This document shows, in pieces, positions 51,144 to 52,866 of a DNA stretch of 64,000 bases. The stretch is taken from positions 1 through 64,000 of the forward strand of contig CACPDB010000006.1 in NCBI GenBank assembly GCA_902632605.1, in the 5' to 3' direction. Numbering within the stretch: the first letter of the stretch is position 1; each line of letters begins with the position of its first letter. The position numbers were made by a program, and so were the translations under genes. The DNA comes from an uncultured SAR86 cluster bacterium (GTDB taxonomy: Bacteria; Pseudomonadota; Gammaproteobacteria; Magnimaribacterales; AG-339-G14). The notes below the pieces were generated by a model that saw only the letters and a program-made list of their open reading frames with translations, made no database searches and had not been told where the DNA came from.

Positions 51144-51431
51144 ATGATAGGAGTACTTGTTAAATTAAATATAAAAGAAGGTAGTGAAAAAGACTTCGAA
51201 GAAAATATGCTGAAACTTGTAGAAGCAACAAACGCAAATGAACCTGGTGTTTTCTACTATGGTCTATTAAAAACAGATAATCCTCAAACTTACCAAATGA
51301 TAGAGATATATAAAGATGCCGAAAGTCATGCTCATCATTCTCAAACTGAACACTTTAAAACTTTAGGTGGAGCACTGGCGCCATTTCTTGCTGGAGCACC
51401 AGAAATTACTGTTCACGAGGAAATAAAATAG
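51144..51431 (+). CDS. ABM-domain protein (putative quinol monooxygenase)
   Basis: A 95-aa single-domain antibiotic biosynthesis monooxygenase/YgiN-like protein: GVLVKLNIKEGSEKDFEEN, NEPGVFYYGLLKTD, YQMIEIYKDAESHAHHSQT and HFKTLG are the typical dimeric alpha/beta-barrel pattern. RBS AGGAG precedes ATG by 7 bases. Its stop (TAG) overlaps the proposed ATA start of zapE by two bases, and a GAGGAAAT sequence near its end could serve zapE. Substrate unknown. Confidence 0.85.
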   Translation: MIGVLVKLNIKEGSEKDFEENMLKLVEATNANEPGVFYYGLLKTDNPQTYQMIEIYKDAESHAHHSQTEHFKTLGGALAPFLAGAPEITVHEEIK

Positions 51432-52483
51432 CCCTAAAAGAAAATTATTTAAGAGCTGTATCAAGCCAAGAAATATCCTTAGATGACGCTCAGCTTAAAT
51501 TAGCTGAGCGTTTGGATGCTTGTTTGCAAGAAATAAATATTGAAAAAGGTTTTTTTAATTTTTTAACTAAAAAAGTACCCCAAAGAATTTATATTCACGG
51601 AGACGTAGGACGAGGAAAGACATTTCTCATGGATATGCTTTTTGAAGAAATTAATCATGAAAAAAAAATTCGGCTGCATTTTCACCGTTTCATGCAAAAT
51701 CTTCATGAGGAGCTTAAAAATTATGAAGGAGCAACAGATCCTTTAAAAAAAATAGTTAAAGATTTATCAAAAAAATACGAATGTCTTTGTTTCGATGAAT
51801 TTTACGTAGAAGATATTGCAGATGCCATGCTGCTGGGGAAATTTATGACTGAACTTTTTAAATCAGATTTATCTTTTTTTGCAACTTCAAATATAGCTCC
51901 AATCAATCTATATGAAGGAGGATTACAGAGAAAGTTATTCCTGCCAGCTATAAAAGCCATTGAAACTGCTTGTGAAATATATCATTTAGATTCTAATGTT
52001 GATTTTAGATTAAGAGCTTTAGAAAAAAGTGGAAGTTACTTTTATCCATCCGATAAAAATATTAAGATCATTGAAGAGATTTTCAATGAAATTACGCAGA
52101 ATAAAAAAGCCAAGGACAGTTTTATAACAATAAACAATAGAAAAATTGATATCTTGGCCTTTTCTAAAGGAGTCTTGTGGGTTAATTTTTTACAAATCTG
52201 TTCTTCTCCAAGAAGTGCTGCAGATTACATTGAAATTTCAAAAGAGTTTCATACAGTTATTCTATCCGATGTACCCATCATAAATTCTGATGATGAAGCA
52301 AGACGTTTTATCTCTTTTATCGACGAATGTTATGACAGAAAAGTAAAATTAATCATTTCAGCAGCTGAACTCCCTGAAAAAATTTATGTCAAATCTAGAC
52401 TAGAAGAAAAGTTTAAGAGAACTATTAGCAGAATGACCGAAATGCAGTCTAAAGATTACCTTTCTCAAGCTCATTTGGCTTGA
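51428..52483 (+). CDS. zapE: ZapE/AFG1-like cell-division ATPase, apparent ATA start
   Basis: AAA+ type ATPase that helps regulate the Z-ring; Walker A GDVGRGKTFLMD, Walker B CLCFDEFYVED, sensor FFATSNIAP and the C-terminal RTISRMTEM block are present. The track starts at a TTG (51512), but family-typical N-terminal sequence (LKENYLRAVSSQEISLDDA) is encoded in frame before it. Between the upstream in-frame stop at 51356 and 51511 there is no ATG, GTG or TTG. An ATA at 51428, preceded by GAGGAA at a 5-base spacing and overlapping the ABM stop, is the best start (351 aa). Either a noncanonical start or an ATG-to-ATA change. Confidence 0.85.
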   Translation: MALKENYLRAVSSQEISLDDAQLKLAERLDACLQEINIEKGFFNFLTKKVPQRIYIHGDVGRGKTFLMDMLFEEINHEKKIRLHFHRFMQNLHEELKNYEGATDPLKKIVKDLSKKYECLCFDEFYVEDIADAMLLGKFMTELFKSDLSFFATSNIAPINLYEGGLQRKLFLPAIKAIETACEIYHLDSNVDFRLRALEKSGSYFYPSDKNIKIIEEIFNEITQNKKAKDSFITINNRKIDILAFSKGVLWVNFLQICSSPRSAADYIEISKEFHTVILSDVPIINSDDEARRFISFIDECYDRKVKLIISAAELPEKIYVKSRLEEKFKRTISRMTEMQSKDYLSQAHLA

Positions 52484-52533: not shown

Positions 52534-52866
52534 ATGAAAGATGTAGTTGAAACTAACTTTGCAATTGGACAGGTTGTAAGACATAAACACTTAGACTTTA
52601 GAGGTGTTATTTTTGATGTAGATCCTGAATTTAATAACACTGAAGAATGGTATCAAAGCATACCAGCCCAAATAAGACCAAAAAAAGACCAGCCTTTCTA
52701 TCATGTTTATGCTGAAAACGAGGAGGTTTTTTATACTGCCTATGTTTCTCAACAAAATTTATTAGCAGATAATTCACTTGAACCAGTAGCGCATCCGGAT
52801 GTTCATGAAAACTTCGGTCCATTTGATGGGAAAAAATACGAAATTTTAGAAGTTACCAGGAACTAG
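52534..52866 (+). CDS. hspQ: Heat shock protein HspQ
   Basis: Small YccV-type protein that modulates DnaA and Lon-dependent proteolysis in E. coli. The 110-aa sequence has AIGQVVRHKHLDFRGVIFDV, the WYQSIPAQIRPKKDQPFYHV block and YVSQQNLLAD near the end, all family-typical. Length is close to E. coli HspQ (105). It is convergent with the aminotransferase gene, overlapping by 4 bases. Confidence 0.95.
   Translation: MKDVVETNFAIGQVVRHKHLDFRGVIFDVDPEFNNTEEWYQSIPAQIRPKKDQPFYHVYAENEEVFYTAYVSQQNLLADNSLEPVAHPDVHENFGPFDGKKYEILEVTRN

Follow-up and report, generated by a model that had tools for sequence, protein, structure and literature searches.

The comparison of related genomes makes it very probable that translation of zapE in this SAR86 genus begins at an AUA codon, located at position 51428 of the window (the whole 64,000-nucleotide stretch that was analysed, corresponding to C6:1-64000 of the source genome G000, a SAR86 draft of 1.22 Mb in 19 contigs). 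The evidence comes from the fixed sequence around this codon in all members of the genus that carry the gene, from purifying selection on the codons that follow it, and from related genera in which the conserved N-terminus of the protein likewise begins at a non-canonical codon.

A probable ATA start codon in zapE

The gene order between 51144 and 52866, all on the forward strand, is ABM, zapE and YccV/HspQ-like. The first gene encodes an ABM-domain (antibiotic biosynthesis monooxygenase-like) protein of 95 amino acids (51144..51431; Pfam PF03992, E=8e-17) with AAA TAG as its last codons, and the downstream neighbor, included as context only, is a YccV-like/HspQ-type gene (52534..52866; PF08755, E=5e-29). 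The open frame of zapE spans 51359-52483, from after the TAA at 51356-51358 through the TGA at 52481-52483; counted from the ATA at 51428..51430, the gene (51428..52483) has 351 codons, followed by TGA. Its product has the features of an AFG1-like ATPase, namely the AFG1 domain (PF03969, E=7e-106, and E=1.6e-106 in a whole-genome search) and a Walker A motif or P-loop, GDVGRGKT, at 51599..51622, which begins at codon +57 from the ATA. The Pfam AFG1_ATPase homology covers residues 3-344 when residues are numbered from 51434.

The first-pass annotation had reported that this frame lacks ATG, GTG and TTG between the TAA and a TTG at 51512, and had placed family N-terminal residues upstream of that TTG; re-reading of the sequence agrees with the former, and the domain match from residue 3 bears out the latter. 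Its description of the ribosome-binding region is also correct, with a Shine-Dalgarno-like GAGGAA at 51417..51422, five bases before the ATA (seven bases for the GAGG), and an ATA that overlaps the TAG of the ABM gene by 4 nt (ATAG). Two explanations had been offered, a genomic change from ATG to ATA and a genuine ATA start codon, and the comparison across relatives supports the second.

Fifteen of the 16 genomes of the genus carry zapE, the relatives being 98 to 76% identical in protein, and the public records among them come from different projects and include single-cell genomes and MAGs besides other assemblies. All 15 have ATA at this place. The window does belong to a draft genome of 19 contigs, and errors in sequencing or assembly, or a private change from ATG to ATA in the source strain, might be considered for that reason, but all 15 genomes agree, among them differently named assemblies of single-cell, MAG and other origin, which leaves such explanations with next to no probability. 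An ATG in relatives, which the annotation had named as the observation that would speak for a recent variant, was found in none of the 15.

The ATA and its Shine-Dalgarno sequence fall within a 14-nt block, GAGGAAATAAAATA, that is invariant in the 15 genomes, and variation resumes directly after the start, where the first codon is GCC, GCT, GTT or ACT and the second is CTA or CTT. Across the ABM gene and the zapE start region, GAGGAAATAAAATA ties for the longest invariant nucleotide run, the other equally long run being situated near the ABM gene's own start. None of the four ABM wobble positions inside the block varies among the 15 genomes, and the third base varies in 62 of the 81 ABM codons (77%) in which the amino acid is constant; the rough chance of four invariant wobble positions is 0.3 to 1.4% if the relatedness of the genomes is ignored. 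It should be noted that the last two bases of the ATA are partly forced, because both belong to the ABM stop codon, which is TAG in 13 genus members (ATAG) and TAA in two (ATAA). Conservation of the ATA is therefore weak evidence when taken alone, and the argument rests on the combination of features. Likewise, given the codon frequencies, a run of 28 codons that lacks a canonical start is not rare by itself in this composition, and hence the weight of the case comes from conservation. The predicted duplex between the Shine-Dalgarno sequence and the 16S tail has an energy of about -5.9 kcal/mol for the ATA of the window (genus range, -5.6 to -5.9), and an intact anti-Shine-Dalgarno sequence, CACCTCCT, was read in the related genomes G003 and G021. 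The mRNA around the zapE start was also folded, and no shared structure was found.

The position of the start can be narrowed from both sides. In nine genomes of the genus an in-frame TGA closes the zapE frame four codons upstream of the ATA, so the start must be downstream of this TGA. Between the closing TGA and codon +14, ATA is the only near-cognate triplet common to all 15 genomes, and two genomes have an additional near-cognate AAG in this interval. Codons +1 to +27 after the ATA, which make up the N-terminal stretch before the TTG (51431..51511), have a dN/dS of 0.10 (0.12 among eight diverged genomes), and the same interval read in the two shifted frames gives 1.2 and 1.8. As the ratio is low in the zapE frame only, these 27 codons are protein coding.

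These observations bear directly on initiation at the TTG (51512..51514), which the annotation had put forward as the alternative that N-terminal data might reveal and which would produce a ZapE shorter by 28 residues. This codon is the first ATG, GTG or TTG of the frame in the window and the one that a gene finder would choose by default. It is, however, not conserved, being absent in the close relatives L004 and L005, its Shine-Dalgarno match is weak (-3.2), and strong constraint acts on the 27 codons that precede it. Seven genus members have no canonical start before codons +59 to +67, which are past the beginning of the P-loop, so that a protein initiated there would be an ATPase with no intact ATP-binding loop. 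Across the family, 22 of 35 zapE genes have their first canonical start no earlier than the first codon of the P-loop. Initiation at the TTG is thus extremely unlikely.

Non-canonical zapE starts in sister genera

None of the 35 family genomes has a canonical start (ATG, GTG or TTG) for the conserved ZapE N-terminus. All 20 genomes of the sister genera have CTG at this place (seven in g2, six in g3 and seven in g4), and in most of them a stop closes the zapE frame three or four codons before the CTG. In g2 and g4 the CTG shares bases with the ABM stop (CTGA), and in g3 it is positioned 2 nt after TAA, so that every stop-start arrangement of the ABM-zapE pair (ATAG, ATAA, CTGA, or TAA plus 2 nt) is within the coupling window of -8 to +6 nt. 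The Shine-Dalgarno energy of the CTG starts is almost nil (+0.8 to -1.5 kcal/mol), and the ATA and CTG variants thus seem to depend on different help, the former having a good Shine-Dalgarno sequence and the latter almost none. In genomes with CTGA or ATAA, one substitution would turn the zapE start into ATG.

The CTG of the sister genera raises the question of whether the genus under study initiates at the corresponding codon, since the CTA or CTT at 51434 occupies, in the protein alignment, the position of the CTG with which g2, g3 and g4 start. The third base of this codon varies between A and T within the genus, as in an ordinary leucine codon, both triplets differ from ATG at two positions, and the GAGG is 13 bases away, which is too distant. 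We therefore regard initiation at 51434 as very unlikely.

Another alternative would dispense with a separate zapE start altogether. The ABM frame ends in ATA AAA TAG, and a lysine tRNA could slip back by one base on AAAA and resume at ATA GCC; such a -1 frameshift at A AAA TAG would generate an ABM-ZapE fusion, and the AAAATA at the junction is invariant. However, the ABM gene does not end in a full X XXY YYZ heptamer, and sister genera with the same gene order have no site for re-pairing (GTC TAA, AGC TGA) and have zapE starts that lie three or four codons after an in-frame stop. The conserved Shine-Dalgarno sequence at start-codon spacing before the ATA also speaks against a fusion, for which we see only a slight probability, comparable to that of initiation at 51434. 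Initiation at the ATA remains the preferred reading.

Outside the family, among the zapE genes read, the start is TTG in most members of f3, and one f3 genome has ATG, as does f2. In f1 loci an ABM-like frame runs right up to the zapE start, and the sequence upstream of zapE is different in f3; the coupling of ABM and zapE therefore goes with the non-canonical starts. On the zapE gene tree the genes with ATA form a single clade (support 98/99), and the branching order of the genera is left unsettled. A strict series from ATG through TTG and CTG to ATA was considered and dropped, as the gene tree gives no genus order, and only a single origin of the ATA is claimed.

Proposed mechanism and published precedents

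The arrangement of ABM and zapE, the fixed ATA, the fixed Shine-Dalgarno sequence and the constrained N-terminus are established by sequence comparison. They are most likely explained by a translationally coupled AUA start, assisted by the Shine-Dalgarno sequence, that would keep ZapE synthesis low. Ribosomes would reach the AUA by termination and reinitiation at the ABM stop through the 4-nt ATAG overlap, the GAGG would assist initiation, and the ordinary fMet initiator tRNA would read the AUA with a mismatch. Such initiation would be inefficient and subject to IF3, and its low yield may hold ZapE below the level of the upstream ABM protein. Altered decoding as a cause was also sought, and no sign of it was seen: besides the intact anti-Shine-Dalgarno sequence, the tRNA set is ordinary and no tRNA with anticodon TAT was found; three tRNAs with a CAT anticodon are present, as expected for the initiator, the elongator and Ile2, and so is the gene for IF3.

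The family-wide pattern of ATA and CTG, set against TTG or ATG in other families, suggests that a weak zapE start has been kept rather than merely tolerated once. In a stronger proposal, the weak start is actively maintained in the family (ATA in the genus under study, CTG in its three sister genera); it would set ZapE dosage below that of the coupled upstream gene and make it follow IF3 and growth state, and over time one weak codon would have given way to another instead of reverting to a canonical start. We consider this a tentative possibility that is somewhat more likely to be wrong than right.

Conserved non-canonical starts are already known, for example in infC, ccpN and sigR, and what distinguishes zapE is the depth of its conservation together with the alternation of weak codons. 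The infC gene starts with ATT in E. coli and ATC in Streptomyces (PMC5472188), and in S. aureus infC, ccpN and citZ all have AUA starts (PMC13009471). Like infC, zapE is an otherwise ordinary gene whose near-cognate start is conserved, and in S. aureus the infC codon is also AUA. Unlike infC, zapE does not encode IF3, hence no direct autoregulatory loop is expected, and its start overlaps the upstream stop.

The AUA start of ccpN is conserved between S. aureus and B. subtilis, and AUA reporters of S. aureus ccpN and citZ reach about 10% of AUG, with ccpN rising to as much as 30% in rich medium (PMC13009471). The zapE AUA is similarly backed by a properly spaced Shine-Dalgarno sequence and conserved between species, and the ccpN reporters provide an instance of reduced, medium-dependent initiation. 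The two cases differ in that ccpN encodes a transcription repressor of Firmicutes and has an extended Shine-Dalgarno sequence, whereas zapE has a shorter GAGG core, a coupled overlap, and sister genera that use CTG with almost no Shine-Dalgarno sequence. In E. coli, a change of the rpoS start from ATG to ATA lowers RpoS up to five-fold (PMC12864459), and ATA is reported to reach at most about 1% of the efficiency of AUG (Hecht et al. 2017 as cited in PMC12864459), a low figure that weighs against an AUA start.

The GTC start of sigR in Streptomyces is repressed by IF3, with a demonstrated function in the ratio of sigma to anti-sigma factor (PMC5472188). It resembles zapE in being conserved across a genus and replaced by GTT in a few species, much as ATA and CTG alternate in zapE, and differs in that a function was demonstrated for sigR, whereas a dosage role of the zapE start is proposed. 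An overlap of 4 nt is the commonest coupled arrangement (PMC10666635), and ATAG and CTGA share the geometry of the -4 nt overlaps ATGA and GTGA (PMC10666635). The canonical -4 overlap depends on a TGA stop, whereas with an ATA start either TAG or TAA can serve.

The zapE gene adds a case spanning 35 genomes in which the start stays non-canonical while changing its identity, and the case concerns a division-linked ATPase, outside the few reported examples. Throughout this SAR86 family, ZapE would be truncated or missed by gene finders that accept no start other than ATG, GTG and TTG.

Other unusual starts in the genomes

Two relatives, G003 of the same genus and G021 of g2, were rebuilt, and 1,086 orthologous ORF pairs were screened for conserved coding sequence ahead of the first canonical start, a screen that is blind where that start lies within about five codons. 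The zapE gene ranks first, with 30 such codons in G003 and 65 in G021, and prfB, a known programmed frameshift, was recovered as a control. Most of the other matches were set aside as shadow ORFs of rRNA or tRNA genes, as out-of-frame overlaps with upstream genes, or as prfB itself. Non-canonical starts are thus rare in these genomes, but zapE is not the sole example.

Another case is infC, encoding IF3, in g3 (L077-L085; e.g., L077, + strand), where TAG AGG TTY AAA ATA GCT TCN was read in 9/9 genomes and the next canonical start is at least 35 codons downstream. The infC gene of g3 must therefore start with ATA, which provides strong internal support for the ATA of zapE. The gene has ATG in the g1, g2 and g4 genomes read, and this difference between one genus and the others offers a natural comparison for the coevolution of IF3 and weak starts in streamlined genomes.

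A hexapeptide-repeat acyltransferase has ATT as its apparent start, and the only plausible one, in both genera (L169:12610, equivalent to G003 C1:52610, + strand; L120:9040, equivalent to G021 C1:269040, + strand). In G021 the stretch from the upstream stop to the conserved N-terminus contains only AAA and ATT, and the family matches have similarly short open frames upstream. The rsmI gene of G021 (L148:1359, minus strand; C1 about 821359) has no canonical start for 78 codons, and the sequence GGAGGA TTA ATC ATT AGT suggests a start at ATT or ATC; rsmI of G003 starts with ATG.

Two further frames differ at their 5' ends between the rebuilt genomes. The frame at 586256-587701 (+) of G021 C1 starts with RVFSKGAEKILLAQIKQEF and lacks the first residues of its G003 orthologue (MAGLEKPSKGAEK..); having no start before a TTG, it may reflect a frameshift, an assembly error or an unusual start. 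On the minus strand of G003 C2, a Glutathione S-transferase-like frame (359709-360207, reverse coordinates) appears 5'-truncated relative to G021, its alignment starting at residue 84 of the G021 orthologue, and this truncation probably represents a frameshift or decay.
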